Under the pieces are notes generated by a model. That model searched no databases, was not told the DNA's origin, and saw only the letters and a program-made list of their open reading frames with translations. Positions 6,099-28,307 of a DNA stretch of 64,000 bases are shown here, piece by piece. The position numbers were made by a program, and so were the translations under genes. The DNA is from Nocardioides panacisoli (GTDB taxonomy: Bacteria > Actinomycetota > Actinomycetes > Propionibacteriales > Nocardioidaceae). Numbering within the stretch: the stretch's first letter is position 1; each line of letters begins with the position of its first letter. The stretch covers positions 124,001 to 188,000 of the forward strand of contig NZ_CP080409.1 in assembly GCF_019448235.1 (NCBI RefSeq), written 5' to 3'.

Positions 6099-6413
6099 GT
6101 GGCCCTGCTCTCCTCGCCCTCGGCGACCCCGCAACCAGACGCCGCCCTTGCGGCTGCACCGACGCCCGAGGACGTGGTGTCGGAGCTGGACGAGTCGCTG
6201 CGACGGCTGGTCCGTGCCGAGGGACTGGACCCACAACGCGAGGTCGACGCCGTACGCCGACTGGCCGAGGGCGTCGTACGCGAGCACGACGAGCGCAGCC
6301 TGACCGGCGTCGTCGCACCCGTGGCCGATGCCGCGGCGGTGGTCGCGGAGCTGGTCGCGCGGGTCTCGGGCTTCGGACCGCTCCAGCCGTTGCTCGACGA
6401 CCCGGAGATCGAG
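6099..6413 (+). pseudogene. tadA: tadA/cpaF pilus ATPase, 5' fragment (interrupted by element A)
   Basis: It encodes the N-terminal 105 residues of a Tad/CpaF secretion ATPase, ending ...G-F-G-P-L-Q-P-L-L-D-D-P-E-I-E. In intact homologues E-(I/V)-W-I-N follows at once; here the frame runs into element A and stops at 6470 after 19 unrelated residues. The missing E-V-W-I-N-Q codons are found at 17643-17660 and the catalytic remainder at 27348-28307. This fragment holds no Walker motif and cannot work alone. The GTG start at 6099 lies about 200 bases from the divergent start of the transglycosylase-like gene, so the pilus operon promoter is probably in 5902-6098. Confidence 0.9.
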
Positions 6414-6437
6414 AAGAGTTGCACAGTCGGACGACCT
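6410..6437. other. attL of element A (tadA / element A junction)
   Basis: Bases 6410-6413 (CGAG) recur at 17639-17642. To the left is tadA; to the right is the element arm ending in GACGACCT at 6430-6437, exactly 16 bases from CGAG. Its inverted partner AGGTCGTC at 17615-17622 is also exactly 16 bases from its CGAG. The 16-base inner arms also match in part (GAGTTG and GTC at equivalent places). This is the imperfect dyad expected of a large-serine-integrase attP split by integration. Confidence 0.85.
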
Positions 6438-6483
6438 GACAAAGCGGTCCGGATGATCCCGAGGCGATGAGACTCTGTCTACT

Positions 6484-7131
6484 GTGACCTGGCTAGAAGA
6501 CATCTCGGACGCGCTGCGCACTCTTGGCGGCAGCGCTACTCTCGCGCAGATTTACGACGAGGCCGCACAGCGGCGCGGGGTGCAGCGGACCAACGTCACC
6601 GAGGCGACAGTTCGGCGGATGATCCAGGATCACTCGTCTGACTCGCAGGGGTTCAAGCACGGGACTGATCTCTTCTTCTCCGTTCAGGGCCTGGGCGCCG
6701 GAGTCTGGGGGCTTCGAGATCAGGTCGAGGAGACTCCGGCCGCCGCCGACCTCGACGGTGGAGCCGTGCAACCCCAGCGCGCCGCCCAGCTCACGTACCG
6801 GATCTTGCGAGACACCCGTCTGGCGCGGCAGGTCAAGTTGCTTCACCGAGACAGGTGCCAGATCTGCGGCGAGGCCCTCAGGCTCGGTGACGGGCGCACC
6901 TACTCTGAGGGTCACCACATCATTCCTCTCGGGGGAGCCCACAACGGCCCAGACACGGCGGAGAACATCATCGTTCTCTGCCCTAATCACCACGCTCTCT
7001 GCGACTACGGCGCGATCAGACTCGACTTTGCAGCGCTGCGGCAGGTTCCTGGACACCAGATCTCGCAGGGCTCGATCGACTACCACAATCGCGAAATCTT
7101 TGGGCACCGCTTCCCACCGGTCAGGGCCTAG
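6484..7131 (+). CDS. Winged-helix + HNH endonuclease
   Basis: Residues 1-80 form a HARE-HTH-like winged helix (L-E-D-I-S-D-A-L start, A-T-V-R-R-M-I-Q, ending G-V-W-G-L-R-D). Residues about 115-185 are an HNH nuclease: C-Q-I-C, then G-H-H-I-I-P-L-G-G-A-H, E-N-I-I-V-L-C-P-N-H-H-A-L-C-D-Y-G, so both zinc Cys pairs and the beta-beta-alpha metal His are present. The arrangement resembles HNH restriction enzymes, including type IV-like ones, rather than packaging HNH proteins (inference from domain layout). GTG at 6484 has no clear Shine-Dalgarno sequence. It is the first gene inside element A, 70 bases from attL, and would lie next to the integrase across attP in the excised circle. Confidence 0.85.
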   Translation: MTWLEDISDALRTLGGSATLAQIYDEAAQRRGVQRTNVTEATVRRMIQDHSSDSQGFKHGTDLFFSVQGLGAGVWGLRDQVEETPAAADLDGGAVQPQRAAQLTYRILRDTRLARQVKLLHRDRCQICGEALRLGDGRTYSEGHHIIPLGGAHNGPDTAENIIVLCPNHHALCDYGAIRLDFAALRQVPGHQISQGSIDYHNREIFGHRFPPVRA

Positions 7132-7220
7132 GGGTGACGGTACAAGTCAGCGATCGATGCCGAGTAACACTGACTGACCCCATGCCGCTGAGTTCCCAGC
7201 TATCTGCTGGGCGCATACGA

Positions 7221-7844
7221 CTAGTTGTCGTAGTCGACGCCCGGGTTGCCTCTCCAATGGACGCGTCGAGGCGTTGCGTATTGAGCGTCGCCGTCGAGGG
7301 AGTACGTAACAGTTGCCTCCATCTCGACGAGCCTCTCCGGATCGCTAGCGATCGGCTTCGAGCGGTGGCAGAACACCTTCTCGCCTCGATGCAGTCGCAC
7401 GGGCAGATCGTTCTGGCCCTTGGCGAACATGGCGATCGTCGCCGTTAGGTCTTCGCCAACGTCGATCCATTTACCGGCATGAGGGCCGATCGGCACGTGC
7501 AGACGATCGATTCGCAGCCCGTGAACGAAGACGGTGGCCCCGTCGGACTCGAGTTCGGTCCCAGCGATTACGGTCCTCGCCTCGAGCGAGTCCACCGGCT
7601 CCCCGCGAGAGAAGAACGGAGTGAGGCGGAAGCCGACGTACATAGACGACTTCGCCACCTGCGCAGCGGCCTGACTTGCCTCTGCCGCCTTCTTCGCACT
7701 CCCCGCTGAGCGCTCCGAGGAGTCGGCTAGCCGCTTCGTCAGGATCGCGTACCAGCCCGTTAGGACGGCCAGAACGGCGGTGACCAGGAGCGGCCCCCAA
7801 TCAGCCGCAAACGAGGTTGCGTTTGCCCCGGCGGCAAGAATCAT
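7221..7844 (-). CDS. Small membrane-anchored protein, last gene of candidate defence operon
   Basis: The 207-residue protein has one N-terminal transmembrane helix (W-G-P-L-L-V-T-A-V-L-A-V-L-T-G-W-Y, about residues 16-33). A short Ala/Lys-rich helical stretch (S-A-G-S-A-K-K-A-A-E-A-S-Q-A-A) and a soluble beta-rich domain of about 140 residues follow. No enzyme motif is visible and I do not recognise the family. Its start overlaps the stop of the 501-residue gene by four bases (7841-7844), so the two are probably translationally coupled. In phage-defence operons such a component is often the membrane-acting partner, but nothing in this sequence proves that. Confidence 0.7.
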   Translation of the reverse strand: MILAAGANATSFAADWGPLLVTAVLAVLTGWYAILTKRLADSSERSAGSAKKAAEASQAAAQVAKSSMYVGFRLTPFFSRGEPVDSLEARTVIAGTELESDGATVFVHGLRIDRLHVPIGPHAGKWIDVGEDLTATIAMFAKGQNDLPVRLHRGEKVFCHRSKPIASDPERLVEMEATVTYSLDGDAQYATPRRVHWRGNPGVDYDN

Positions 7845-9346
7845 TCCTCGTCTCCCGTGTGCTGGCCCGCTTCCTCGACCGCGGCAGAACTATCAGAGGT
7901 ATCTGCCTCGTGTATGTCTTCGAACAAGTCACCCTGCGCTCCGTCAGCGATGAGCAGGTTTCCCACCGCTTCGGCTTCGTCGTCAGTGAGATCAACCAGG
8001 AAAGGCAGCGCGGCGCGGGCCAGATTCCCAATCGGCAGGACGGAACTAGTCGGGCCCAGGGCCGTCCGAGCGGGAATGTCGAGCGTGGCGATTCCTCCGC
8101 CCGGAATGGCCAGGGCAGCACGCTCAACCGACAGCCCGGGAACGTCCTGGGCCAACTGCGTCAGATCCTTGTCGCGTAAGACGTTCAGTCGCTCCTTACT
8201 CTCGTACGAAACGCCTCGATCGCCCTTCCCGAAGTCGACGCGGGTCACGGCCGTATTGGATGTTGCGGCGCGCTTCTTAAGCGTGTCAAGGGAGAATCCT
8301 TGTCGGACCTCGGGCGGTGGCAACTCCTCTGCGCGTCTTGCCGCAAAGTGAGCGATCCACTCTGCGCCGCGAATCGCGAGGCATCCTCTGTCGACAACCC
8401 AGCGCGGGAACTCCTCGGATTCCGACAGACGGACCTGTTGCCCAGTCGCGCGGATTCCCTTTGAGGTGAGGAACTCTAGGTTTGCAGTTACGAAAGTCTG
8501 AAGGCTTGCGGACGGGTCCTCAATGCGCAGCCGCCCCAATTGAGCTGTAGTGACGTTCTTTCCGACCCGTCGCCAGAAGTCGGCCGAAGCGTCCTCCAGC
8601 GTCGTCATTAGGTAGAAGAGATCGTCATCGGTCAGCGGGCCGGTCGACGATGTAGTCGGGAACGCCGAACCGGCCCCGCCGTTCCCCTCCCATACGGCGC
8701 GCAAGATTCGTGTGAATCGGCCCGCCTGTTGCGAGTCGAGGCTTCCTTCGAGGGAAGCGACGCTCTCGGTCATCGACCCAGCATTCAGCGCCTCGGCGTT
8801 CTCGAACGCCGTCTCGGTCGCCGTTGTCAGTCGCTCCACCGCTTGCCCGGTCGAGACGCCCTTGCCGCCGCGTACGAGAGCCTGCCCCAGGAGACCTATA
8901 ACCGCAGAGTCCTTGCGGGCTGTGGCTACACCACCGATCGCTGAGGGATCTGCGATCCAGGTGTCCGCGGATGCCGCAGAAGCCTGAAGGCGCTCGCTCG
9001 AAGCGGGTGGCCGCTCCTCGCGGTTCAGTTCCTCCTCCGCTGTCAGATCCTCCAGTGTGAAGATCACCGGACGGTGAGAGGACAGGGAGGCAATGTCATC
9101 TTCTAACCACGCCTCAGCCGCTGAAGGACGGAGGAACAAGAGTCGTTCCCGTGATTCTTCCGGCCAGCGAAGAACCATGTCCGGTACGACGACATGATTG
9201 AAGTAGTCGGTGAACTTGACGGAGACTGCTGGATCGGCAGCGCGGAACTCGGCCGTCACCGCCCTCTTGATGCGCTCGATTCGCGCGTCGGAGGTGTCCT
9301 GCTGACGGGCTTCGGCCATTGCTGTGGCGAACTCAGTTCGCACCAC
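7841..9346 (-). CDS. Large protein of unknown family in candidate defence operon
   Basis: The 501-residue protein is soluble and mixed alpha/beta, with no transmembrane segment or nucleotide-binding motif that I can see. The N-terminal 110 residues resemble a charged, possibly nucleic-acid-handling region (I-E-R-I-K-R-A-V-T-A-E-F-R). The middle is Ser/Thr/Ala-rich, and the C-terminus is acidic (D-L-F-E-D-I-H-E-A-D). GTG at 9346 directly follows the TAA of the nuclease gene with no spacer, and its own stop overlaps the next start. The three genes at 9949-7221 therefore form a compact operon. No function can be assigned. Codon use here is less GC-biased than in the host genes. Confidence 0.65.
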   Translation of the reverse strand: MVRTEFATAMAEARQQDTSDARIERIKRAVTAEFRAADPAVSVKFTDYFNHVVVPDMVLRWPEESRERLLFLRPSAAEAWLEDDIASLSSHRPVIFTLEDLTAEEELNREERPPASSERLQASAASADTWIADPSAIGGVATARKDSAVIGLLGQALVRGGKGVSTGQAVERLTTATETAFENAEALNAGSMTESVASLEGSLDSQQAGRFTRILRAVWEGNGGAGSAFPTTSSTGPLTDDDLFYLMTTLEDASADFWRRVGKNVTTAQLGRLRIEDPSASLQTFVTANLEFLTSKGIRATGQQVRLSESEEFPRWVVDRGCLAIRGAEWIAHFAARRAEELPPPEVRQGFSLDTLKKRAATSNTAVTRVDFGKGDRGVSYESKERLNVLRDKDLTQLAQDVPGLSVERAALAIPGGGIATLDIPARTALGPTSSVLPIGNLARAALPFLVDLTDDEAEAVGNLLIADGAQGDLFEDIHEADTSDSSAAVEEAGQHTGDEE

Positions 9347-9949
9347 TTACACCGCCTCTGCCGTAATCATCTTCACAACCTCGATGTAGTGCTCGCGGGT
9401 GAGAACGAGATCTTGCTGCTTGTCCGTGAAGGTCAGGAGCCAAACTCTCTCTGAAACCTTGACGAGGGCCTCGGCGTCGATCTGAGCTGCAGCCTCTGCC
9501 TCGTCATCGGTGCCGAAGATCCGGTGCCTGTTTCCCTGATGCAGGAGCGCCTTCTTGACACTCTCTGTCGACGTATGGGTGTCCCACGACTTCGCTTGGA
9601 AAGGCGACCAGGCGAACCAGAGGAAGTGATCGCACCGCGCTGGGTGCGCGAGAATCGCGACGTAACACTTCGCAAGGAAGTCGCGAAAGTGAGTCGGGAG
9701 GTTACTCTCGTTCTTGTACTTCTTGACCTCGGTGAGGAACGTCTGGTCTTGAAGGCCCGTCCCACGGAACTTCCCGCCAAGGTCAAACGAGAACGTCTCT
9801 TTTGCGTGCGGCCATTTGAACTCCAGCAGCTCCGAAAGCGGCTTGTCCCGATGAGTCCAACTCTCGTGAACTCGGGTCGTTCGATCTAGCCAGCGTTTGG
9901 CCTCGTGAAGACCATCCCGGCCGGTGTCCTGGTTGTCTTCTCCGGCCAT
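9347..9949 (-). CDS. PD-(D/E)XK-like nuclease, first gene of candidate defence operon
   Basis: The 200-residue protein has a restriction-nuclease-like core: F-S-F-D-L-G-G-K-F-R-G at about residues 53-63 and F-L-T-E-V-K-K-Y-K about 10 residues later. The Asp and the E-x-K pair match the PD-(D/E)XK spacing, and the preceding segment E-L-L-E-F-K-W may supply the helix Glu. Conserved-looking His/Trp residues follow (H-F-L-W-F-A-W). It starts with ATG at 9949 and is the first of three contiguous minus-strand genes. The association with a large partner and a membrane protein inside a mobile element suggests anti-phage function (inference). It could instead belong to a plain restriction family that I do not recall. 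Confidence 0.65.
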   Translation of the reverse strand: MAGEDNQDTGRDGLHEAKRWLDRTTRVHESWTHRDKPLSELLEFKWPHAKETFSFDLGGKFRGTGLQDQTFLTEVKKYKNESNLPTHFRDFLAKCYVAILAHPARCDHFLWFAWSPFQAKSWDTHTSTESVKKALLHQGNRHRIFGTDDEAEAAAQIDAEALVKVSERVWLLTFTDKQQDLVLTREHYIEVVKMITAEAV

Positions 9950-10084
9950 GCCATAACCCCCGCTAACGGATCCCGAGACACTCGTTTGGCGGGACGCTAC
10001 CGGAAGCGACCGTCAAGCGAAGGCAAGACCGTGGATGCGCTCCAGCCCACGAGAGGACGCTCCTCTCAAGGGCTGAGACCGCGC

Positions 10085-10366
10085 TCAGAACGGCGAACGC
10101 TCCGCCAGAAGACCGTCCGCCAGGAACGACAGGGCCCGGCCCCCCGTCGCGTCGTAGTACGCGCGGAAGAGCACGCCGTCCTCTCGTTGGTCAGGCTCCA
10201 GACCGTGAATGTCGCGTAGGTAGTCCTCCAGGAGGTCGACCCCAGCGAACGGCTCGACCGCCTCCTCGCGACGAGCGCGCTCTAGGATCTCCTCCGAAAC
10301 CACCACGCTAGGGAAGGGATCAGCGGTCGCGCGAGACGCCACAGCAGGCTCCCGACGCCGCCTCAC
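10085..10366 (-). CDS. Small phage-type hypothetical protein after the terminase small subunit
   Basis: GTG at 10366 overlaps the stop of the P27-like gene (GTGA), which fixes this start. The 93 residues are acidic and helical (V-S-E-E-I-L-E-R-A-R-R-E-E-A-V-E-P-F). The frame stays open far upstream, but that part lies inside the neighbouring gene and reads as Arg/Gly-rich shadow. No domain is recognised. The tight overlap suggests that it works with, or is expressed with, the terminase-like protein. Confidence 0.6.
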   Translation of the reverse strand: MRRRREPAVASRATADPFPSVVVSEEILERARREEAVEPFAGVDLLEDYLRDIHGLEPDQREDGVLFRAYYDATGGRALSFLADGLLAERSPF

Positions 10367-10737
10367 GAGGACCGCCGCCCAGGAGTCCGGCCCTGCCAGC
10401 GCTTCGATACCAGAGCCGCGCCAGCCGCCGACGCGCCCGACTGACCTGGCGCGCGTCCGAGGCTCTTTAGGAGCCCCATCGCCGCTGTCCGTGCGTGCCG
10501 TTCCTCCGGGATCAGCGGATTGACAACGCGAGATCGCGAGCCGTTGACGACGAAGCCCTCCTCGCCGATTGCCTCCGCCAACGCGTCGGCCCGCGCCAGT
10601 AGAGCGCACGCCTCGTATAGCGCGGCCCGTGTCGCCGCGTCGTCGCTCACCGCCTCCTCGACTTGGACGTAGGTCTCGCGAGCGGAGTCGCTCCAAGACT
10701 CTGGGAGCCCCTCGTATCTGTTCTCTTCGTCGGCCAC
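10363..10737 (-). CDS. P27-family phage terminase small subunit-like protein
   Basis: The 124-residue protein matches the size and pattern of P27-type TerS proteins. It has a helical core (A-L-Y-E-A-C-A-L-L-A-R-A-D-A-L), then a short strand region (G-F-V-V-N-G-S) and the motif N-P-L-I-P-E-E-R-H-A-R-T-A-A-M-G-L-L-K-S-L-G. TerS recognises phage DNA and hands it to the large terminase. The GTG start at 10737 has a strong AAAGGAGG eight to ten bases upstream. No TerL, portal or capsid gene lies nearby, so a lone TerS in an integrative element suggests hijacking of a helper phage's packaging, as in satellites, or a remnant. Confidence 0.65.
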   Translation of the reverse strand: MADEENRYEGLPESWSDSARETYVQVEEAVSDDAATRAALYEACALLARADALAEAIGEEGFVVNGSRSRVVNPLIPEERHARTAAMGLLKSLGRAPGQSGASAAGAALVSKRWQGRTPGRRSS

Positions 10738-10942
10738 GGGGGCCTCCTTTCATTGTTGTTCGGTGAGCGCTGTACATGCCGTTGGCGTACGCAAGAGGCG
10801 ATACGTGCCCTGCCTGCCGAGCCATGCCTCCCGGAAGAGAGGAAGAAGGGGGGAGGGGGAGGGTTCCCCCAGGGGGTGATCCAATGACCGGGAAGTCACC
10901 GCGGTGCTGGAGGGTTCACCAACTACGCGTGAGAATGGTCCT

Positions 10943-11977
10943 ATGGCACTTAACGTGTGGTGGGAGAACGATCCTGAGCAGCGCTACTGGATGGAGATCT
11001 TCACGGGTGACGACCCGGGTAATCAGCTGCTCGCGCCGCAGCTCGTCGGTGGTCACTGGTCGTACGAACTGCCCTCCCTCGTAAAGCCTGGCGACGTCAT
11101 TTTCCACTTCTCGACCGTGGGGGCGAGAGCGGGAAGCATCGTTGGTTGGTCCATCGCGCAGGGACCAGCCGAAACTCTGAGAAGGTTCCACTGGGAACCC
11201 CGTGGAGCGTCAGGGCGCGCCAATCAGACCGTCCATAGCGGAAAGGGATGGAAGGTCCGCCTAGGGGGTGTCAACGATCTCGGAAGCTCTGTCAACAAGT
11301 CGATGATTCAAGGCGCGCGCGCGGATCTAATGCAGCTCAAGGCTGAATTGCAGGAGAAAGTAGACGGGTCGGTCTACTTTCCTTGGTATGAGTACGGAGG
11401 GAATCAGCTCCGAGCTCAGCAGGGGTATTTGACGAAGTTTCCGAAAGAAGTCCTCAACCTATTGCCGGGGCTCAAGGTCGCACGGCCCTCAGACAGGTCT
11501 CAGGTCGACGATGAGCTTGTGGAGGACACCCAACGTCCGGGTGGTCGCGCGCCGAAGGGTCGTGTGACGCGAGCCCAAGACCCCGTGCTGAGGAAGGCAA
11601 TCGAGACTCACGCCGTCAACGCTGCGATCGACCACTACACAGCGTTGGGGGCGACTCGCATCAAAGAGCTGGGTAAACCCTACGATATCTGGCTGCAGCT
11701 TCACGGGATCGAACGGCACTGTGAAGTTAAGGGTAGTTCGATGCGTATCGACACTGTTGAGCTGACCATCAACGAAGTCGTGCACGGCCAGACATTCACG
11801 CCAACGGACCTCATCGTGGTGGACCAGATTCAGTGGGAGAGAAACCCCGATGGAACTGTCACGACCAGTGGCGGACAGATGAGAGTCTGGTCCGATTGGT
11901 CGCCGCTCGACGATGATCTCGCGGCCCGGAAGTTCGCATACAACCTGCCACCCGTGCCGGGCACAGATCCCGCCTAG
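10943..11977 (+). CDS. EVE-like / DUF3883-like fusion, probable modified-DNA restriction factor
   Basis: The N-terminal 100 residues (N-V-W-W-E-N-D-P-E-Q-R-Y-W-M-E-I, then P-G-D-V-I-F-H-F) resemble EVE/PUA-like domains, which read modified bases. The C-terminal 130 residues carry a DUF3883-like nuclease core: A-I-D-H-Y, P-Y-D-I-W-L, then C-E-V-K-G-S-S, giving the D...E-x-K pattern of PD-(D/E)XK enzymes. A reader domain joined to a nuclease is the layout of type IV restriction proteins (family knowledge); the exact assignment is inference. ATG at 10943 is preferred over an upstream in-frame start because the preceding 13 codons look non-coding. It stands alone on the plus strand among minus-strand genes. 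Confidence 0.65.
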   Translation: MALNVWWENDPEQRYWMEIFTGDDPGNQLLAPQLVGGHWSYELPSLVKPGDVIFHFSTVGARAGSIVGWSIAQGPAETLRRFHWEPRGASGRANQTVHSGKGWKVRLGGVNDLGSSVNKSMIQGARADLMQLKAELQEKVDGSVYFPWYEYGGNQLRAQQGYLTKFPKEVLNLLPGLKVARPSDRSQVDDELVEDTQRPGGRAPKGRVTRAQDPVLRKAIETHAVNAAIDHYTALGATRIKELGKPYDIWLQLHGIERHCEVKGSSMRIDTVELTINEVVHGQTFTPTDLIVVDQIQWERNPDGTVTTSGGQMRVWSDWSPLDDDLAARKFAYNLPPVPGTDPA

Positions 11978-12116
11978 TCTCCGGCCTGCCTCGTATCATC
12001 GAGCAGGGCGTCCAGTTCGGTCGTGAAGCACCTCAACGGGGGCCGGATGGTCAGACCCGGCCCCCATTCGAGGACTCCTCGACCTGAATCCGTCGGCGTT
12101 GCGAGTGTCTGCCGCG

Positions 12117-12329
12117 TCAGTCCTCCTCGGACCGACCTGCGTTACGCGGTTCATCTTGACCGCGGTTGAGCAGTGAAGCTCGCGAATGGGGACGGTCTGA
12201 GTGGGCGGATCGGATGTCGCCGCGCTTCAGTGGGCCGAGCACCCAGTCGGCGTCTCGCTCGTCGTGTCCGAGCCGTCGAGCCGATCGGGCGTCGTGTGTG
12301 TCTTCGACGTGGTCCCAGGGACCGACCAT
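12117..12329 (-). CDS. Small hypothetical protein, end of packed gene chain
   Basis: The 70-residue ORF starts at ATG 12329, three bases after the stop of the preceding small gene. It is rich in Asp, Arg and His with no recognised motif (D-H-V-E-D-T-H-D-A-R-S-A-R-R-L-G-H-D-E). The only support is its position at the end of a chain of overlapping minus-strand genes and its balanced composition. Confidence 0.4.
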   Translation of the reverse strand: MVGPWDHVEDTHDARSARRLGHDERDADWVLGPLKRGDIRSAHSDRPHSRASLLNRGQDEPRNAGRSEED

Positions 12330-12332
12330 CGT

Positions 12333-12539
12333 TTACACCTCCTCTTCGTCGGGCGGAGTCGAGTTCATGCGCTCCGCCAGGGGCACGCGGCCCTGTGCCC
12401 GGGCGCGTGCCGCTCGATCGTGCGCGGCCCGAGCACGCCGGGCGGCTCGTTCGCCGGGGGTGGGTGCCTCCCGGGCCGCAGGCTCGAATGCCGCGGGATG
12501 GACGGGTTCGAGTCCCGGACGTGGGCGCAGGAGTCCCAT
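12333..12539 (-). CDS. Small basic hypothetical protein
   Basis: The 68-residue protein starts M-G-L-L-R-P-R-P-G at ATG 12539, which overlaps the stop of the preceding 50-residue gene (ATGA). It has an Ala/Arg-rich helix (E-R-A-A-R-R-A-R-A-A-H-D-R-A-A) and an acidic end (P-P-D-E-E-E-V). Small proteins of this kind are common in actinophage and satellite genomes; no function is known to me. Confidence 0.5.
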   Translation of the reverse strand: MGLLRPRPGLEPVHPAAFEPAAREAPTPGERAARRARAAHDRAARARAQGRVPLAERMNSTPPDEEEV

Positions 12540-12691
12540 CAGTGGCCCCGTCGCTCGCGCGCGGCGCGGAAGAGGGCGTCGTCGTCCTCGCCCTGGGCCA
12601 GGCGTCGACGCGCCTCGGCAGCCTCGGCCGGGTCGGTGCTGTTCGCCTGCTCCTCGTGGACCATGCGCTCGATCTCCTCGCGTGACCTCAT
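12539..12691 (-). CDS. 50-residue hypothetical protein in overlapping chain
   Basis: The ORF was found by reading the minus strand. It begins M-R-S-R-E-E-I-E-R-M-V-H-E-E-Q at 12691, overlapping the stop of the 235-residue gene by four bases (ATGA), and ends R-A-A-R-E-R-R-G-H at 12539, overlapping the next ATG. Overlaps at both ends and a clean amphipathic helical composition (P-A-E-A-A-E-A-R-R-R-L-A-Q-G-E-D) make it credible despite its size. The function is unknown. Confidence 0.6.
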   Translation of the reverse strand: MRSREEIERMVHEEQANSTDPAEAAEARRRLAQGEDDDALFRAARERRGH

Positions 12692-13395
12692 CGGGTGCCC
12701 TCCTCGTTCTCGACGTGCTGCCAGCGGGTGCCGTGGACGGTGCCGGAGCCTTCGACGAGCATCGCTGCACGCGCGGTCGTCGTGAGGAGCCGGACGCCGC
12801 CCTCAGCGGCCTCGACCTCGACCAGGCCGCAGCGGTCTCCGGCGATCTCGGCGAGCGCGTACGTGTTGACCCAGTCGAGTCGCTCCAGCGGGTCGCCCAG
12901 CGGGGTCGTGACCAGGTGATCGGGCCTCAGTGGGTGGTCGGGCAGGACGAGGCCGTCCTGGGCCGGGTAATACGCCGCCTCGGCCTCGACCGAGGCGACG
13001 GCGGCGTCCACGCGGCGGGCGTGGGCCTCCAGTGCCAGGCGGGCGGCGATCTCGTCGACTCGCGTCTCGTGCGCAACGAGCGCGCCGACGAGACCCTGAG
13101 CGGCGACCGTGCGAGCCCGGTGAGCCGTGTTCAGCGCCGTCGCTTCGGCGCGGACCTTCTGGCCGACCTCGACGAGCCAGCGCTGCCGCTCGCCCGGCAC
13201 CCGGAGTGTGGACTCCATCGCGGAAGCCTCCGCGCGAGCGTGTACCGCTGCCGCCGCGCCGACCTCGGCCGATGCCGCCTTCAGGGCCTCCAGTGCCCGA
13301 CGTACCGCAGCGGGCATCCGCTTGTGCCGCAGGATCGCGCGGTCGGGCAGGTTCTCGATCGTTCCGCCGTGGTTGCGGACCTTCATCTCCAGCAT
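12688..13395 (-). CDS. Hypothetical helical protein of element A
   Basis: The 235-residue protein is mostly Ala/Glu/Arg-rich helices (residues about 30-150, probably a coiled coil). A C-terminal beta-like domain follows (L-D-W-V-N-T-Y-A-L-A-E-I-A-G-D-R-C-G-L-V-E-V), ending near the stop at 12688. It has no transmembrane segment or catalytic motif. It heads a chain of three or four genes joined by stop/start overlaps. I do not recognise the family. Confidence 0.6.
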   Translation of the reverse strand: MLEMKVRNHGGTIENLPDRAILRHKRMPAAVRRALEALKAASAEVGAAAAVHARAEASAMESTLRVPGERQRWLVEVGQKVRAEATALNTAHRARTVAAQGLVGALVAHETRVDEIAARLALEAHARRVDAAVASVEAEAAYYPAQDGLVLPDHPLRPDHLVTTPLGDPLERLDWVNTYALAEIAGDRCGLVEVEAAEGGVRLLTTTARAAMLVEGSGTVHGTRWQHVENEEGTR

Positions 13396-13440
13396 GTGTG
13401 TGTCTCCTCTAGGTGTTGGTGACCGTGTGTCGTTGCGCCG

Positions 13441-15272: not shown

Positions 15273-15400
15273 GGTCGGTCCTCTCGGGGCGGTCCAGCGG
15301 ACTGGTCGGAAGGTGTCCCAGTGGTGCTAGTGGTGGGTGTCTCTATTACTTCTTCGAGAGACGACGACTTGAGGGGTAATAGAGGGAGGGGTCACCTGCG

Positions 15401-17548: not shown

Positions 17549-17614
17549 TGGGATCCTCCTCGGTTGAGCGGGTACGGCCGGAATGGGCCAGGGCCGGGAG
17601 CGCTGCTCAGACGA

Positions 17615-17687: not shown

Positions 17688-17691
17688 CGCC

Positions 17692-19785: not shown

Positions 19786-20006
19786 CGGGGGACCTGCCTG
19801 TTACTCGGGGTAATGCGCGGAGGTATCGCGCCTATGTCCAGGAGTATCGGGCGGGTTCCTCGGGGGAACTATCATCCGCTCGACGTGTCGTCTGAGCGTG
19901 ATGCCCGCGCGCATAGGTGCGTTCCCCTCGGGTGACAACGGGACCCGGCGGGGAACACGCGGGCGCCCACCCGACCCACCCTGCTTGAAGGCATAGCCTC
20001 GATCGA

Positions 20007-21433: not shown

Positions 21434-22036
21434 TCATTCCCCCGCCGAGCGTCGTCGCTGATCGCGGCGACTATCGAGGTCGCCGACTTGGGCATGACTC
21501 ATTCGGGACCTTGCGACGCCGTGCATGACGACGGACCTAGCGAGCGCCACAACGTCCAGTGCGGCGACGAGGAAGAGCGTCGTCTCCACGCCGAACCACC
21601 ACGCCTCACCCGTGCTTGGCACTTGCGATGCTGCAGCACCGTACGAGACCCCGCCAATCAAGACGGTGACCTGCAGGCCAATGGCGATCATGAAGGGGCT
21701 CAGGAAGCCCACCACGCCGTCGCCGCTCCCGTCCTCATCTAGCAGCCGCAGATAGTCGGTTGTGAACAGCCCAACGACTAGGGCCAGGGCAGCAAAGACG
21801 ATGCCGAGAAGCGCGCCAGCGAGGGGGAGATACGAGTCAACCAGGTTCGCTCGCGCAGCCAGGTCCGCGTTGTGGATCATCCAGAGAGAGCCGCCTACTC
21901 CTAGGACGATGCCGCCACCAATCTCCGGAGTGACGAGGACGCGGAGGTCTTGACGCCCTACCGCTGCCCAGAAACCTGCACGGCGTCGCAGACTACCCAC
22001 GGTCTTGTCGCCTCCCCGCCGCTCTTCTGAGTGCAC
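21434..22036 (-). CDS. Multi-pass membrane protein, second gene of flanked module
   Basis: The 200-residue protein has about four transmembrane helices (I-V-L-G-V-G-G-S-L-W-M-I, L-A-G-A-L-L-G-I-V-F-A-A-L-A-L-V-V-G-L-F, P-F-M-I-A-I-G-L-Q-V-T-V-L-I-G-G-V, and T-T-L-F-L-V-A-A-L-D-V-V-A-L) with a basic C-terminus. Its start overlaps the end of the 308-residue gene by 44 bases, so the two are coupled. No family is recognised. A soluble protein coupled to a small membrane protein is a common abortive-infection layout, but here that is only an analogy. Confidence 0.6.
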   Translation of the reverse strand: MHSEERRGGDKTVGSLRRRAGFWAAVGRQDLRVLVTPEIGGGIVLGVGGSLWMIHNADLAARANLVDSYLPLAGALLGIVFAALALVVGLFTTDYLRLLDEDGSGDGVVGFLSPFMIAIGLQVTVLIGGVSYGAAASQVPSTGEAWWFGVETTLFLVAALDVVALARSVVMHGVARSRMSHAQVGDLDSRRDQRRRSAGE

Positions 22037-22919
22037 CTAGCACGGCATCTCTCGCCTGCTGCCAATCGCTGCTGAGCGGGTCCACTCGCTCCCGGGCGAT
22101 TGCTTCCTTCTGGTTGAAGGTCGCCCTCTTACCGTGACGGTAGCCCCTACCGAGGACATAACCGAAGGCCGCCATGGCCGCAGCTAGGAAGGCTCGGTTG
22201 GTGTCGTCATTCGCCACCGCCTCGACGTCCAAGCTGGCCTCTTCCCCTTTCGCCGTGATCCGCTGCTCGATCTGGTCAGCCCCCATGGAAGTGATCCGCT
22301 GATCCAGCCGCGCGAAAAGTTCCTCAGCATCCGGGTTCGGCTGCCGGAAAACGAACCTCACCTCCGTTAGGCGATCCAGCGATCCGAGCCAGTCAAGAAA
22401 CTGGGATTCATCGCCGACTGGCTCCACTGCCCACTCGGTGGTCGGAATCCTCCTCGTGGACTCGCCGAAGTTGAGCAGCGACTCCATAGCGCTGGCGACG
22501 TTCTGAGGCGTGAAGCTGGAGTGGCGCATCACCCCCAAGTAGTGCCCGTCAACCAGGACCGCGAATGGAGCCACCGCTGAGGTCTTGCGCCGCCTACGTT
22601 CGGTTTGCCAATGGTCGTTGGTCTCGTCGTAGGTGTGCTCCGGTTCCTCCGGACCTTGCCTGTCCCAACCGAGGAGTCCGGTCATGAAGTCGTCGCCGCG
22701 CTCGCGGTCACCCGTTGCCCACTTGCGTTGGAACTGTCGGCCCGTAAGAGCGGTGTGACCGCCAGCGAGCACCTGTTCCACGTGTTCCAGCAGCGGGGGG
22801 CGCCTGAAGAGCTGCGGGTCACTGGTTAGGGGCCGGCGGTTCAGCCGGTAGATCAGTACGTCGGTATCCCTGCCGCTGAACCACGCCTCGGCGTCGTGAC
22901 GCGCCCGAGCCTCTTCCAT
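21993..22919 (-). CDS. Soluble protein of unknown family, first gene of flanked module
   Basis: The 308-residue protein (ATG 22919) contains V-L-I-Y-R-L-N-R-R-P-L, A-P-F-A-V-L-V-D-G-H-Y-L-G-V-M, E-V-R-F-V-F-R-Q-P-N-P-D-A-E-E-L-F and a C-terminal G-Y-R-H-G-K-R segment. The mixed alpha/beta order and the phrase V-R-F-V-F-R-Q-P-N-P suggest a real conserved fold, but I cannot name it. It shows no nuclease, NTPase or kinase motif. It is the only soluble gene between the two copies of the 155-bp inverted repeat and is coupled to the membrane gene. Codon use is less GC-rich than in the host genes. Confidence 0.65.
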   Translation of the reverse strand: MEEARARHDAEAWFSGRDTDVLIYRLNRRPLTSDPQLFRRPPLLEHVEQVLAGGHTALTGRQFQRKWATGDRERGDDFMTGLLGWDRQGPEEPEHTYDETNDHWQTERRRRKTSAVAPFAVLVDGHYLGVMRHSSFTPQNVASAMESLLNFGESTRRIPTTEWAVEPVGDESQFLDWLGSLDRLTEVRFVFRQPNPDAEELFARLDQRITSMGADQIEQRITAKGEEASLDVEAVANDDTNRAFLAAAMAAFGYVLGRGYRHGKRATFNQKEAIARERVDPLSSDWQQARDAVLGALRRAAGRRQDRG

Positions 22920-22922
22920 CAC

Positions 22923-23850
22923 CTGATGCCCACCTCCTACCTGTGGACCCTATGTGTGATCAGCTGCTTGGCGAGGAAGCGCGCCATTGGACACGCTGCT
23001 CGGGACCCTCTTGGCACGCTCCTTGGCGTGTTGCTCAGCCAGCTGCTCGACCCGCTCGGCCAGCTGCTTCGGCGCGGGAGACGGGCACGTCGATCAAGCA
23101 GCTCGGGGCAGCTGATCGACGGTGGGCAAGGCGGGCGTTCCCGGCGGTGACCGTTCGGCCGCCGTGCACCCTGCCCGCGCGGGTGGCGTTGCTAGGTGCC
23201 GAGGGCGGAGGACGTCGAGCACGTCGCTTGGTGGCACTGCTCGGCCCGTCACTCCCTGGACGTTCTCCGGCGTGACTCCTTTTGGGGAGACTCCTGGGCG
23301 TGCTGCTGGGCCAGCTGCTCGACGGCGAACGCGGCCGGGTCAGCTGCTCGACGGTGGGCACGGCGGGTGTTCCCGGGTGTGACCGTTCGGCCGCCGTGCA
23401 CCCTGCCCGCACCGGTGGCGTTGCTCCGCGTCGAGGGTGAGCACTGCGAACGCGGCCGGGTCAGCTGCTCGACCGGGTGCAGCACGGTCGGCCAGCTGCT
23501 CGACACCCTGCCCGTGTGCGCTGCCCGGCCAGCCGCGCCGGTTCACTCCTGAGAGCATGCTCCTCGGCCGCGAGGGCGTGCACGGCATGCACGCTGCTGG
23601 GCACGCGGATCGGGGTGCACTGCCCGGCCAGCTGCTCCGGTGCGCTCAGCGCGGGTGCTCTTGGGCAACGCTGCCCGGTGTCGAGCGCTGATGACTCCTG
23701 GGCGCGCTGCCCGGGCAGGTCGAGCACGCCGTTCGGGCGGCTGCTCGGCCCGTCGCGCCGTTGCTGCTGCGGCTGCTGCGCACGCTGTCCGGGCACGTCG
23801 CGCGGGGCGCTCCTGGGTGCGCTGCTCGGGTGTGTGCTGCTTCTAGTTGC
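22923..23850. repeat. Gene-free mosaic-repeat tract 2
   Basis: The same module family as tract 1, largely in the opposite orientation. One module beginning TCGACGGTGGGCA occurs at 23117 and again near 23348, and inverted at 20806-20888. The 155-bp block 23493-23647 is the inverted partner of 20985-21139. No ORF here has a credible start or coding bias. The two tracts bracket the 21434-22919 gene pair. Confidence 0.8.
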
Positions 23851-24088
23851 ATCATCATCATTCGCAGGCACGTACGTTCCGCGCAGATTCGCTCGCTTCG
23901 ACCCTCGCGCGGTACGTCACGTAACGATGCATGCGTGCGTGCGGGAAGGAGTGCAACGCAAGGTTGCGTGCGAGCTTGCACGAAATGATGATGAGTTGAG
24001 CGAAGCGAGCGAGCGAGCGTGATGCGAAGCGAGCGCGCGCCGCGATCCTCAGGTTGTTCCTCTGTTCCTCCTGAAGTGTGGTCCTCGG
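23851..24088. other. AT-richer stretch with interleaved inverted repeats before the iterons
   Basis: A contrast to its GC-rich surroundings: ATCATCATCATTCG near 23852 pairs with CGAAATGATGATGAG near 23979 (one extra A), and TCGCTCGCTTCG at 23889-23900 pairs exactly with CGAAGCGAGCGA near 24001. The order is A-B-A'-B', which is not a simple hairpin and could fold as a pseudoknot in RNA. Alternatively it is a melting region of a replication origin. It contains no gene. Confidence 0.55.
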
Positions 24089-24190
24089 CCCCAACTCAGC
24101 GTTGGGCAACGCCCCAACTCAGCGTTGGGCAACGCCCCAACCCAGCGTTGGGCAACGCCCCAACCCAGCGTTGGGCAACGCCCCAACCCA
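24089..24190. repeat. Iteron-like array: four 23-bp units plus a partial fifth
   Basis: Units start at 24089, 24112, 24135 and 24158, with ten bases of a fifth at 24181. Each has the dyad CCCAAC-nCAGC-GTTGGG followed by a second overlapping dyad CGTTG-GG-CAACG. Units 1-2 carry T and units 3-4 carry C at one position. The exact 23-bp spacing, about two helical turns, is typical of protein-binding iterons at replication or partition origins. The winged-helix gene downstream is a candidate ligand. Confidence 0.85.
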
Positions 24191-24395
24191 CTCAGGAGCG
24201 AGAATCCCGACCAACGACACGCCGACCCCCTGTGTCGAGTGGAGCGACCCCGCCTCATATGCTCAGCGCGCGGGCTGCCCAGTGATTGGGGTGGTGCGCC
24301 CGGTACCGGCGCCGGATTGGTCGTCGTGAGTTTCGTTCGTTCCTCTCAGCGGGAATCGGACACAAGGCTTCGTCATGCCTTAGGAGCTCCGACCA

Positions 24396-24602
24396 ATGTC
24401 CACGATTGCTCGTGAACACGCCCGCGTTGCCTCACTTTCCCGATCCCGCAAGCCTGACGATCCCGAACTCATCGAGGCCAAGCGCAACCTTCGCGCGGCT
24501 CGACTGAAGGCTTACGTACGCCGGGTTGTCGACAGTGCTCCGCCGCTCACTGACGACCAGCGCGACGAGATCGCCAGCATCTTGCGTGGAGCTAGTCAGT
24601 GA
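24396..24602 (+). CDS. Small conserved actinobacterial element protein
   Basis: The 68-residue protein (ATG 24396) contains D-D-P-E-L-I-E-A-K-R-N-L-R-A-A-R-L and V-D-S-A-P-P-L-T-D-D-Q-R-D-E-I-A. This charged two-helix pattern appears in many small proteins on actinomycete prophages and integrative plasmids, usually near replication or excision genes (from memory). It is followed 90 bases later by the winged-helix gene on the same strand. Its function is unknown; it may bind DNA. Confidence 0.65.
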   Translation: MSTIAREHARVASLSRSRKPDDPELIEAKRNLRAARLKAYVRRVVDSAPPLTDDQRDEIASILRGASQ

Positions 24603-24692
24603 GGGCGAGCGAACGCCGCCCGGCGCGATCCTCCGAGCGGCGCTCAAAGTCGTGTGGCAACGACACCAGGAGTCTATCGGCAGGGGCGACCG

Positions 24693-25070
24693 ATGGGCGC
24701 TAACCTTGTGCGCGCAGTTTGGGACCAGCGAGCCAGCGACCCAGGCAAGCACCTCAGCGTTCACGCGCTCTTGATCCTCGTCAAGATGGCGCACACCGCG
24801 CTCGACACACCGCGAGACGGCAAGCCGGCGGCGCTCTACTGGGCAGGGTGGGACCCACTCATTGAGACGATGCGCGGCGCGGTACCCGACACCTGCGGCT
24901 CGGGCGGCAACTGCCGGTGCGCTCCTTGCAAGAAGTACCGGAGCGACACTGAGTTTGTACGTCGGAAAGTCGCCGAGTTGCAGCGTCATGGACTCATTGA
25001 GCGCGCGACCCGAGCACGCCCAGGACGACGCCAGGAGTACCGCATTCTCCTCACGCCGCCCCAACACTGA
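24693..25070 (+). CDS. Small winged-helix protein, candidate replication initiator or regulator
   Basis: The 125-residue protein starts at ATG 24693, with AGGGGCG just upstream; an in-frame GTG at 24654 is less likely. It opens A-N-L-V-R-A-V-W-D-Q and has a winged-helix layout: H-A-L-L-I-L-V-K-M-A, a helix with W-D-P-L-I-E-T-M-R-G, then F-V-R-R-K-V-A-E-L-Q-R-H-G-L-I-E-R and the wing R-R-Q-E-Y-R-I-L-L. A Cys cluster (C-G-S-G-G-N-C-R-C-A-P-C) sits in the middle and may bind metal. The position after the iterons suggests that it binds them (inference). Confidence 0.65.
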   Translation: MGANLVRAVWDQRASDPGKHLSVHALLILVKMAHTALDTPRDGKPAALYWAGWDPLIETMRGAVPDTCGSGGNCRCAPCKKYRSDTEFVRRKVAELQRHGLIERATRARPGRRQEYRILLTPPQH

Positions 25071-25079
25071 GTTGGGGCG
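25057..25079. terminator. Perfect 9-bp-arm hairpin at the stop of the winged-helix gene
   Basis: CGCCCCAAC and GTTGGGGCG flank a five-base loop that contains most of the TGA stop. The arms match the iteron dyad (CCCAAC/GTTGGG), so this may be a terminator, a further binding site for the same protein, or both. Confidence 0.6.
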
Positions 25080-25234
25080 TTTCCGACGCTGAGTTCGCTG
25101 CTGGGCACGATGAGGTGACTCTTGGGCGCGCTGCTGCGCGGGTCGAGCGCGTCGAGGACGCTCCTGGGCACGGCTGCTCGGCCAGCTGCTGCTGGGCTGC
25201 GGCTGCGCGGGTCGTTGCTCGTGGCCGCGCTCTC
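25080..25234. repeat. Short mosaic-repeat tract 3
   Basis: It contains GGCCAGCTGCTGCTGGGCT, GGACGCTCCTGGGCA and other words of the same family as tracts 1 and 2. I see no gene. Confidence 0.55.
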
Positions 25235-25864
25235 TCAACTGCGCTCAGCTGCGCGTCGCCGTTTGTACTCTTCGTGAATCCGTAGCAGGGGGAGGCTCGG
25301 CACGTTCGCGGCCCGCGCCATGTCAAGGATCGGGATTAGAGCTTCCTCCGCGAGAAGTGTCTGACGTCCAAGTCCGCACCTGCCCTCATGGGGAAGGTGT
25401 TCCGGTGTCCTTGGCCCTAGAAGCAGGTCCGAGTGCCGCCGCGCTCGGCGCTGTAGTAGTTGCCCGTCGTCTAGGAATCCGTCCAGGCGGTCGCACTCAA
25501 GGACGTATCCCACTCGGTACGTGTCGGGGTGAGGTACGTCGGGCAGCGCCCCGGCGTGACGCTCAATGCTCGGCAGCGTGTGGATTGGGTGAAACCCGCG
25601 TTGGCGCGGGTCGTCCCGACTGATAAACAGCTTGCGGCCGGGATCGGTGAGTTCGTATCGGCCACGACCAGGGGATGACCACCATCTGAGCTCCCCGGTG
25701 GCCGTGGTGCCGTAGCGAAACGTAATGACGGTGTATGGGGCACGCTGTTTCGCTGCGTGGTCGCAGTACGTCTTGTGGTCGTCGCAATAGATCTTGTGGT
25801 CGCAGTAGACGGTGAGGGAAAACGTGACTGCCGGATCGGGTTGCGGGGACCTATGGGCCGTCAC
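25235..25864 (-). CDS. Hypothetical protein with Y-C-D-H repeats, coupled to integrase B
   Basis: The GTG at 25864 overlaps the integrase B stop (GTGA). The 209-residue protein has three near-repeats at the N-terminus (V-Y-C-D-H-K-I, Y-C-D-D-H-K-T, Y-C-D-H-A-A-K), a likely metal-binding patch made by a small tandem DNA repeat. The middle is beta-rich (R-W-W-S-S-P-G-R-G-R-Y-E-L-T-D-P-G-R-K-L-F). Near the end is A-L-I-P-I-L-D-M-A-R-A. Co-expression with the integrase would suit a directionality factor or att-binding protein, but there is no homology basis for that. Part of the middle may be low-quality coding. Confidence 0.5.
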   Translation of the reverse strand: MTAHRSPQPDPAVTFSLTVYCDHKIYCDDHKTYCDHAAKQRAPYTVITFRYGTTATGELRWWSSPGRGRYELTDPGRKLFISRDDPRQRGFHPIHTLPSIERHAGALPDVPHPDTYRVGYVLECDRLDGFLDDGQLLQRRARRHSDLLLGPRTPEHLPHEGRCGLGRQTLLAEEALIPILDMARAANVPSLPLLRIHEEYKRRRAAERS

Positions 25865-27318
25865 GACTCGTCTCCGAACGTGATCGGCACAGACTCGGGG
25901 TTGAACTCCGCGCCATTGCCGGGGCCTATCCGATCGATAGCAATCTTCATCTTGAGGCGGTCAGAAAGCGCGCGGAGCACGCGGCGTTTTCTCTCAACGT
26001 CGGCGCGCTTCCATGCCTGCCGGGCCGTGTCGCCGGTGAACTCTGACAGATCGTCGTCCGGCTCTGACCTGTGTAGGCGTGCCCTCTCGGCCTCCAGCTC
26101 GGGGCGGACTCTAGCGGTGATCCGCGTCAACTGCTCGCCGTCGATGAGGTCGTTGCTGAACTGATCGGCGGCTAGGTCGAGCTTGGCCCTCAGCTCCTTG
26201 ATTCGGGTGCGCGCCTCCTCAGCTGCGGCCGGGTCGCCACCCAACATCTTGACGCCGTTCCGCTCTAGGAGGTCGATTACGACACTCTCGACAACCTCGT
26301 CAACGTCGGACATGCGACGCTGCACCTTCATGCAACCGGCGTGAGGGCACTTGTATGAGTGCGGGTAAACACGGAGTTTCGTGGGCGCTTCGGTCGCGTT
26401 CTTCCGCTTGTATCCCTTCACCTTGTATGTGAACTCGTTGGTTCCTACAACGGGCCGGTCGCACTCGCCACACAGCGCGATGCCCGTCAGGAGATAGCGG
26501 ATCGCTGTCCCGCGGTTGTTCGCCCGGCGTGCCGGATCGGTCAGGGTCGCTATGACCCTCTCGTGCGTCTCTCGGTCGATGATCTGCGCCCATTGGCCCG
26601 GTCCGACCTCCCGGCCGCGATGGGATCGCACGCCACAGTTGCGCCATCTCAGGAGCATCCGTCGCAACGTCTGTGTCTGCCACGGCCCACCGGTCGCGGT
26701 GGTTATTCCTCGGTCGTTCAGGTCGTTGCGGATCTTCCATAGCCCCTCGCCCGCGAGGAGGCGCCTCACGCACTCGCGGATGACTGCGGCTTCGGCTTGG
26801 TTCACCCGTAGGTTCTTCTGCCCGTCGGTGTCCACGAAATCCCAGCCGAATGGCCTGGGACCGACATGCCGTCCGGCTGAGGCCAGCTCGGCATGCTTGG
26901 CTCTGAGTCTGCGTGAGGATTGCTCGACCTCGTATCGGGCCACCGTGCCCTTCATTCTTGCGAGCATCCTGCCTTGCTCGGTCGCGAGGTCAATGTCACC
27001 GCCGACGCTCGCCAGCCTCAGGCCTTGCCGCTCGGCCCAGTCGATGACGTCCTCTAGCTCTCGCGGCGTGCGTGTGAGCCGGTCAACATCCCAGACTATG
27101 ACGGCTTCGATCTGCCCGCGCTCGATGTCACGAACCATTCGTGCGTACGCCGGTCGCTCCCTTCCGCTGGTTGCGCTTACGTCGTTGTCCTCGTACACGT
27201 GCTGGACATGCCAACCTAGGCGGGCTGCCAACGCCTCGCAGTCGGTGCGTTGCCGAGCGACACCGAGCCCAGTGCCGTCCGTGTCGCTGCTGATCCGCAC
27301 ATAGATCCCGGCTCTCAT
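25861..27318 (-). CDS. Large serine integrase of element B
   Basis: The 485-residue protein begins M-R-A-G-I-Y-V-R-I-S-S-D with catalytic Ser10. The resolvase domain has W-D-V-D-R-L-T-R and Y-E-V-E-Q-S-S-R-R. The recombinase domain follows (G-P-R-P-F-G-W, L-N-D-R-G-I-T-T), then a zinc ribbon (C-G-E-C-D-R ... C-P-H-A-G-C) and a helical C-terminus. I chose ATG 27318 because upstream codons cross the att arm. It is clearly a different protein from integrase A. Its start lies 30 bases from the tadA junction at 27348, as expected for the enzyme that inserted element B. Confidence 0.93.
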   Translation of the reverse strand: MRAGIYVRISSDTDGTGLGVARQRTDCEALAARLGWHVQHVYEDNDVSATSGRERPAYARMVRDIERGQIEAVIVWDVDRLTRTPRELEDVIDWAERQGLRLASVGGDIDLATEQGRMLARMKGTVARYEVEQSSRRLRAKHAELASAGRHVGPRPFGWDFVDTDGQKNLRVNQAEAAVIRECVRRLLAGEGLWKIRNDLNDRGITTATGGPWQTQTLRRMLLRWRNCGVRSHRGREVGPGQWAQIIDRETHERVIATLTDPARRANNRGTAIRYLLTGIALCGECDRPVVGTNEFTYKVKGYKRKNATEAPTKLRVYPHSYKCPHAGCMKVQRRMSDVDEVVESVVIDLLERNGVKMLGGDPAAAEEARTRIKELRAKLDLAADQFSNDLIDGEQLTRITARVRPELEAERARLHRSEPDDDLSEFTGDTARQAWKRADVERKRRVLRALSDRLKMKIAIDRIGPGNGAEFNPESVPITFGDES

Positions 27319-27322
27319 GTGC

Positions 27323-27349
27323 AAGAGACTACTAGTGAACACTTGACCC
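27323..27349. other. attR of element B (element B / tadA junction)
   Basis: The arm 27323-27335 is the inverted partner of 17675-17687 at equal distance (13-25 bases) from the CC core at 27348-27349. Rightward the tadA frame resumes as C-C-C-G-A-C-C-G-G (Pro-Asp-Arg). An in-frame TGA at 27336-27338 closes the tadA frame upstream, so no fusion protein can be made from element B. Confidence 0.83.
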
Positions 27350-28307
27350 CGACCGGGTGTTCGTCGCCCGCGACGGTCGCCACGAGCTGACGAACCTCGT
27401 CCTCACCGAGTCGCAGGTGACCGAGCTGGTCGAACGGATGCTGAAGACGACCGGTCGGCGCATCGACCTGTCGCGCCCGTTCGTCGATGCGATGCTGCCC
27501 GGCGGCCACCGCCTCCACGTGGTGCTGCAGGGCATCACCCACGGCTTCACGGCCGTCAACATCCGCAAGTACGTCGTCCGCGCCCACCAGCTCTCCGAAC
27601 TGGTCGAGCTGGGCAGCATGCCGCTGGAGGCGGCGCGCTTCCTGGAGGCGTCGATGCGGGCGGGCCTCAACGTCCTCATCGCCGGCGGGACCCAGGCGGG
27701 CAAGACGACCCTGCTCAATTGCATGGCCGCCGCGATCCCCGGGGGCGAGCGGGTGGTGAGTGCGGAGGAGGTCTTCGAGATCCAGTTCGCGCACCCGGAC
27801 TGGGTGGCGATGCAGACCCGCCAGGAGGGACTGGAGGGCACCGGCGAGGTCCGGCTGCGCGACCTGATCAAGGAAGCGCTCCGCATGCGCCCCAGTCGAC
27901 TCATCGTGGGTGAGGTGCGTGCCGAGGAGGCCCTCGACCTGCTCCTGGCGTTGAACAGCGGTCTGCCGGGGCTCTGCACCATCCACGCCAACAGCGCCCG
28001 GGAGGCCCTCACCAAGGCCTGCACGCTGCCGCTCCTGGCCGGTGAGAACATCTCGGCCCGTTTCGTCGTCCCCACGGTCGCCTCCGCGGTGGATCTCGTG
28101 GTCCACCTGGAGGTCAGCACCAAGGGCCAGCGCCGGGTGACCGAGATCGTGGCCGTGCCGGGGCGCAGCGAGTCCGACATCATCGAGACCACGCCGATCT
28201 TCGAGCTGGTCGACGGTCGCCTCCGTCGCGGCCTGGGCATGCCGCCGCGGCTGGAGAACTTCGAACGCGCGGGCATCGACGTCCACCGCCTGTTGCAGGG
28301 GGCGTGA
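27348..28307 (+). pseudogene. tadA: tadA/cpaF pilus ATPase, 3' fragment with catalytic core
   Basis: It encodes P-D-R-V-F-V-A-R-D-G-R-H-E-L-T onward, 319 residues, including the Walker A loop G-G-T-Q-A-G-K-T-T, the Asp-box/Walker B region (L-I-V-G-E-V-R-A-E-E-A) and the His box (C-T-I-H-A-N-S). TadA is the cytoplasmic hexameric ATPase that powers Tad pilus assembly. The fragment lacks the N-terminal domain. An in-frame GTG at 27357 could start a 316-residue truncated protein, but no good ribosome site is seen. Its stop is 3 bases from the tadB ATG. The codons are intact, with no frameshift, so disruption is recent or reversible. Confidence 0.92.

Follow-up and report, generated by a model that had tools for sequence, protein, structure and literature searches.

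Some mobile elements split the host gene into which they insert, as does the fdxN element, a gene-intervening element that is excised in development. In several species the genes so broken belong to the DNA uptake pathway: elements have been described in comYC, comK, comFA (at two sites), comM and comEC, and such elements are reported to profit from breaking competence genes, since transformation removes integrated elements (Croucher et al., 2016, PMC4774983). Work on large serine recombinases found the targets of serine integrases to be enriched in competence genes and 12.4% of the site-specific ones to target a magnesium chelatase/protease gene (Durrant et al., 2022, PMC10083194), and SP-beta, a recombinase-bearing element, splits the host gene spsM (PMC4191935). 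Here we describe the Tad/Flp pilus motor gene tadA as it occurs in a 64,000-nucleotide stretch of the Nocardioides panacisoli genome (contig NZ_CP080409.1, positions 124,001 to 188,000; hereafter the window), where it is interrupted by two adjacent serine integrase elements, and in other Nocardioides genomes, where it is split at further sites.

The tadA insertions resemble the competence gene-breaking elements in that insertion is directed by integrases, that unrelated integrases are involved in several species, and that the genes concerned belong, or in our case may belong, to an uptake pathway. They differ in that comFA has two sites (Croucher et al., 2016), whereas here the target is the Tad/Flp motor operon of Actinobacteria, where one gene has 16 position groups and a single copy may hold two inserts. 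With the large serine recombinases of Durrant et al. (2022) they share the use of one target gene by diverse integrases and the enrichment in competence genes; the main text of that paper contains none of the words pilus, ATPase or secretion, and its supplementary tables may list single tadA cases. As in spsM (PMC4191935), a recombinase-bearing element splits a host gene, but here there is no conserved element, no developmental programme is known, and several unrelated elements occupy the one gene. Among titles and the opening parts of abstracts in the open-access literature, we found none in which integrases are described as targeting tadA or the Tad pilus. Elements in competence genes are thus already known; the Tad motor as a target, the 16 position groups and the stacking of elements are what we did not find in the literature.

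The window holds tadA in three pieces, separated by two elements, with tadB and tadC downstream:

6099 to 6413, forward strand: 5′ piece of tadA, codons 1–105 (105 codons), last residues E-I-E
6410 to 6413, forward strand: attL of element 1, common block CGAG, second copy at 17639–17642
6414 to 17642, no strand assigned: element 1, 11,229 bp between cores
15989 to 17548, reverse strand: Int1, large serine integrase of 519 residues, about 90 bp from the attR core
17643 to 17660, forward strand: tadA sliver of 6 codons, E-V-W-I-N-Q
17661 to 17662, forward strand: attL of element 2, core CC, second copy at 27348–27349
17663 to 27349, no strand assigned: element 2, 9,687 bp between cores
25861 to 27342, reverse strand: Int2, large serine integrase of 493 residues, about 5 bp from the attR core
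27348 to 28307, forward strand: 3′ piece of tadA, 319 codons (27348–28304) plus stop, with the T2SSE ATPase domain
28311 to 29177, forward strand: tadB, a single open frame
29174 to 30103, forward strand: tadC, a single open frame

An earlier note on this DNA had placed the end of the 5′ piece at 6413, the isolated sliver codons between the elements, and the resumption of the gene with P-D-R-V-F-V at 27348, and these positions agree with ours to the base. Joining the three pieces by script gave the predicted unbroken 430 residues in one frame with a single terminal stop. The note had also expected uninterrupted relatives to read E-V-W-I-N-Q-P across the join. Of 29 relatives compared, two are broken in the same motif and the other 27 read EE(V/I/L)W(I/V)N(S/T/D)P(D/S/T)RVF; their consensus argues that the expected join, E-V-W-I-N-x-P, is correct, but the glutamine itself is not conserved, being the window's sole departure from these relatives at a variable sixth sliver codon where they have S, T or D. 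The 3′ piece matches PF00437 (E 8e-31), and a 316-residue piece matches the TadA family model TIGR03819 at E 7e-67, which is nevertheless under the family cut-off; a T2SSE ATPase domain followed by tadB and tadC frames is the arrangement of a TadA/CpaF Tad pilus ATPase. An assembly artefact is an unlikely cause of the split, as the source genome is a single contig of 3.57 Mb with an estimated completeness of 100% and split tadA recurs in many other assemblies. As read from the DNA, the two elements sever the N-terminal part of the Tad/Flp pilus motor from the rest of the protein.

Both integrases match the Resolvase, Recombinase and zinc-ribbon families of Pfam (the Int2 zinc ribbon falling under the cut-off, at 20.4 vs. 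25.3 bits), both carry Y-x-R-x-S and DRL(S/T)R, which we take to be serine-integrase motifs, and both look intact; their similarity to XisF is weak and far under the cut-off. Each element has short identical cores at its two ends and an integrase adjoining one end, as large serine recombinase elements do. When the ends of element 1 were aligned in register with the codon consensus, CGAG was present at both, placing the crossover at the GA within it, and the attP inferred from these ends has strong dyad symmetry around GA (at 18 of 25 arm positions, a value reached by none of 5000 shuffles). For element 2, where automated alignment yielded no core, the codon register gave CC, which occurs at either end; its inferred attP is less strongly symmetric (13 of 25 about CC, p 0.048). 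The GA and CC cores lie about 20 bp apart in tadA, and the sliver amounts to about one half-site of each attB. All matches of both integrases to sequenced phages were below 60% identity (among the matches listed, 27–34% for Int1 and about 36% for Int2).

That the two elements are separate follows from the occurrence of each integrase's relatives at the same site without the other. Across 245 family genomes, a single relative of Int1 passed the threshold set for it; it lies in G187 (another genus), whose tadA resumes at codon 85, the Int1 site, with no Int2-type integrase at that site. With Int2 as query, the same genomes yielded 26 integrases at E ≤1e-60 (Int2 itself included), 15 of which adjoin tadA, four more the 3′ end of tadC and seven neither, in a sample that is biased by its query. 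Int2-type integrases sit at tadA codons 90–95, without an Int1-type integrase there, in G079, G090, G264 (another genus of the family), G301, G330 and G151, and G301 and G330 have a second tadA insert at another codon. In a wider contig search, all six loci with an Int2-type integrase alignment were at codons 90–95, in the same six genomes. A single composite element was rejected on these grounds, and the earlier note's view of two unrelated elements at neighbouring codons is borne out; two independent large serine recombinase elements occupy the paired cores.

The same note had called tadA an integration hotspot, which proved an understatement, as other Nocardioides use further sites throughout the gene. 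We searched 215 Nocardioides genomes with intact TadA and searched again the 76 that gave no full-length row; the surveys of tadA, tadB and ComEC count the matches listed, and weak pieces may have been missed. Full-length tadA was found in 139 genomes, and in 43 the gene is split by inserts. The 49 insertions fall into 16 position groups, each pooling crossovers no more than about five codons apart, near codons 84, 92, 128, 135, 144, 160, 208, 213, 235, 240, 271, 287, 295, 311, 321 and 330. The 76 consist of these 43, 11 that were left uncounted (G247, G307, G099, G320, G136, G031, G328, G144, G069, G048 and G075, of which G048 was excluded for a 141-bp overlap between its two pieces, at the ends of contigs), three with a frameshift only, and 19 with no clear tadA. 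Nine counted genomes have some pieces on different contigs or strands (G079, G082, G014, G021, G116, G066, G132, G260 and G104, the last inverted). A profile search, with assignment by element side, showed that 42 of the 49 insertions, in 14 of the 16 groups, have a serine integrase on the element side no more than 1.5 kb away. Six genomes carry two inserts in one tadA: G000, which is the window genome, G301, G330, G132, G305 and G107.

The integrases at these sites are diverse. Between sites, their identity does not exceed 44% and has a median of 28%, as measured on the 527 pairs that align across 250 residues; within the codon 295 site it falls to 25%. In a tree that contains three mis-assigned rows (G301 codon 213, G330 codon 92 and G305 codon 160), most sites match one clade, codons 84, 208 and 295 are used by unrelated clades, and codon 240 is without clear placement. 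The integrases of G014 and G121 are 99.1% identical over 577 residues in host tadA DNA that is merely 76.8% identical, which argues for recent horizontal spread to one site. An in-frame stop was present in one of the 43 piece sets (ungapped matched parts), with ratios of nonsynonymous to synonymous substitution rates (dN/dS) of 0.02–0.28, while longer search rows flag stops in tadA pieces from ten of these genomes, perhaps at points where the match overruns the break. As the pieces are still gene-like, the insertions are young relative to species divergence, or reversible.

Several individual insertions are of note for their size or arrangement. On one contig each in G067, G022, G121, G134 and G107, the tadA pieces lie 119 to 227 kb apart, reflecting large or stacked elements or rearrangements. 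Among the smallest inserts is a 4.4-kb tadA element in G133 (L145 870–5330), with a serine integrase, a replication-associated protein (PF23343) and a third, larger gene having weak matches under the cut-off, HEPN_RiboL-PSP among them. In G235 (L172, another genus), integrases lie at two breaks of one tad operon, at tadA codon 210 and the tadC end.

Neighbouring genes were examined as controls. A tadB match was found in 194 of the 215 genomes, all listed rows being full length and five genomes having two matches; the rows viewed were some 150 of full length and those of the five two-match genomes, without the weaker single matches in genomes such as G140 and G304, and on this basis at least 4 of the 194 have a tadB insert. 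An integrase is at the break in G025, G080 and G023 and 2.9 kb off in G308; the two-match tadB of G315 is a frameshift without an insert. Paralogues of tadA (38–45% identity, among the matches listed) are mostly unbroken over about 300 residues, and a few are partial.

We also took a census of integrases that was not selected by target (PF07508, E ≤1e-10), in which 59 genomes gave 36 integrases; Int1 is under this threshold, so some integrases were missed. By coordinates, eight of the 36 are in a split tadA, two in tadB (G025 and G023) and one at the end of tadC (G029). The flanks of the other 25 were searched for tadA, tadB, tadC and comEC, and selected flanking open reading frames (ORFs) were compared with Pfam. 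This put one integrase next to a second tadA-like gene in G004, another next to a tadA paralogue in G025 and a third next to a truncated ComM-type gene in G051, giving 14 of 36 at tadA, tadB, tadC, tadA-like, paralogous or comM-type genes. In genomes of several Mb the three tad genes cover about 3 kb, but 11 of the 36 sampled integrases adjoin them, and chance was rejected as the cause of the clustering. On the genome sequences, unrelated integrases in Nocardioides and in some related genera use tadA, and less often tadB and tadC, as an integration sink with many sites.

A search with the ComEC Pfam domain, which covers one third of the protein so that inserts in the remainder escape it, gave a match in 211 of the 215 genomes. 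The search was repeated on sixteen genomes that had given either two rows or a weak one (G069, with a weak row, was not among them), and the sequence of six was read. In G301, which has two tadA inserts, an insertion of about 10.2 kb divides comEC and has a serine integrase at the break, and in G312 a serine integrase frame lies at a comEC break close to where the sequence read stops. Frameshifts are present in the comEC of G312 and G021, and the comEC pieces are adjacent without an insert in G305, G325 and G304. Among 72 IMG/VR contigs, one has a serine integrase near a partial ComEC and one has such an integrase near tadC.

In M. luteus, transformation was abolished by deleting any of the tad genes in its two clusters except a tadB, whose deletion lowered it more than 100-fold in one marker orientation (PMC4322843). 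By extrapolation from these genes, tadA may also be required for whatever natural transformation Nocardioides may undergo, and we lean toward the explanation that the tadA elements block transformation and thus their own deletion. In its favor are the in-register junctions and attP symmetry, the many tadA insertions by mutually dissimilar integrases, the near-identical integrases in the divergent tadA genes of G014 and G121, the few tadB inserts, the census integrases at tad and comM-type genes, the integrases at comEC, the ComEC match in nearly all genomes, and the published cases of competence genes as targets. Each integrase lineage would have adopted its own conserved stretch of tadA as attB because an element integrated there would inactivate the pilus motor. 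If the Actinobacterial Tad pilus serves DNA uptake, the host would become non-transformable and could neither import an empty-site allele nor recombine the element away, making integration an anti-curing device. The 20 bp between the two cores of the window would leave each element about the half-site that it needs beside the other. A broader form of this proposal, to which we give an even chance, is that the Tad pilus is the DNA-uptake machine of the Nocardioidaceae, that convergent integrases of 14 or more site groups have tiled its motor gene with attachment sites, so that the elements disarm the transformation by which they would be deleted, and that the comEC, comM, tadB and tadC elements are further hits on this one pathway.

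A number of our observations weigh against a block of transformation. Loss of tadA is tolerated anyway, as would be expected if the gene were merely dispensable: no clear tadA was found in 19 of the 215 genomes, two of which have short remnants, and the gene is broken by a frameshift without any integrase in G080, G060 and G323. Where seen, comEC is broken far less often than tadA, though the uptake channel should be an equally good target, and the tadC breaks lie within the last approximately 30 residues and may leave tadC functional. Beside 22 of the 36 census integrases are other or unidentified genes. Seven of the 49 tadA insertions had no serine integrase in the stretches read: those of G123 and G105 (L067, L083/L152) have short inverted-repeat ends, TTATCT...AGATAA, and are probably transposons rather than integrase elements; that of G024 has a tyrosine recombinase-like match near the junction; those of G096, G285 and G316 have long shared stretches and are perhaps tyrosine integrase elements; and one of the two in G305 (codon 160) had no serine integrase assigned. 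Finally, median dN/dS is higher in split than in intact tadA (0.19 vs. 0.09, Mann-Whitney p 4e-5), a comparison that is weak because the intact reference set is biased to close relatives of one query.

Some of these points suit another explanation, that tadA is a conserved but non-essential gene offering reliable attB sites at little cost, with no benefit from its inactivation. Frameshifts and absence of the gene would then be unsurprising, as would the census integrases at other genes, and one conserved coding site, in a prolyl isomerase, is known to serve diverse serine integrases (PMC10083194). We nevertheless hold this to be rather unlikely: neighbouring tadB, of the same pathway, has inserts in only the few genomes given above, the listed tadA paralogues are mostly unbroken with one adjoining integrase (G025), and the comEC and comM insertions point to a common pathway. 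Those same insertions bear on the idea that other phages use the Tad pilus as their receptor and that breaking it shields host and element from competitors. Pili are common phage receptors, and element 1 has nuclease-like, perhaps defence-like cargo, but elements in comEC and comM, which make no pilus, would be left unexplained, and a literature search on Tad pili in phage reception or resistance found no paper. The comEC and comM integrase elements therefore favor a block of transformation, and we consider shielding from phages improbable.

It is also conceivable that tadA is restored when, under some condition, the elements excise, in the manner of SP-beta and spsM. The junctions in the window are clean and in frame, both of its integrases look intact, and just one of 43 piece sets has an in-frame stop in its ungapped matched parts. 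However, many unrelated elements are involved rather than a single conserved one, double insertions would require two excisions, some split genes are also frameshifted (G305 and G247), pieces in the five genomes named above are more than 100 kb apart, and the longer search rows flag stops in ten of 43 genomes (perhaps through match overrun past the break). A genetic switch is thus the least probable of the explanations, and we regard it as very doubtful.

The remaining features of the two elements were as follows:

6484 to 7131, forward strand: HNH nuclease, element 1 cargo, partial match to type IV restriction enzymes
10904 to 11977, forward strand: NOV_C (Protein NO VEIN C-terminal) domain protein, element 1 cargo
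17973 to 19223, forward strand: tyrosine recombinase (XerC/D-like) of element 2, beside its left end and additional to the serine integrase

Part of the ORFs was scanned. Among the proteins of both elements so covered, none matched a phage structural or lysis gene (17 by Pfam, 10 by PHROGs), neither a phage structural nor a conjugation gene was seen among those of element 1, and a size of about 10 kb is small for a tailed prophage. Element 2 contains, at 20567–23647 of the window, a two-gene cassette (21434–22922) between long inverted repeats of 158 nt that are 99% complementary, together with several shorter pairs; one of the two genes is weakly similar to DUF4747. At 24088–24190 there are 4.5 copies of a 23-bp iteron-like unit, GCCCCAACCCAGCGTTGGGCAAC.

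A 1.2-kb gene that has 16 integration position groups and is split in 43 of 215 species genomes constitutes a natural experiment on how elements choose their sites, and the dozens of serine integrases with inferred attachment sites that it has gathered are useful tools for genome engineering. If the elements do block transformation, Tad pili would mediate transformation beyond Micrococcus, in a phylum where DNA uptake is little known.

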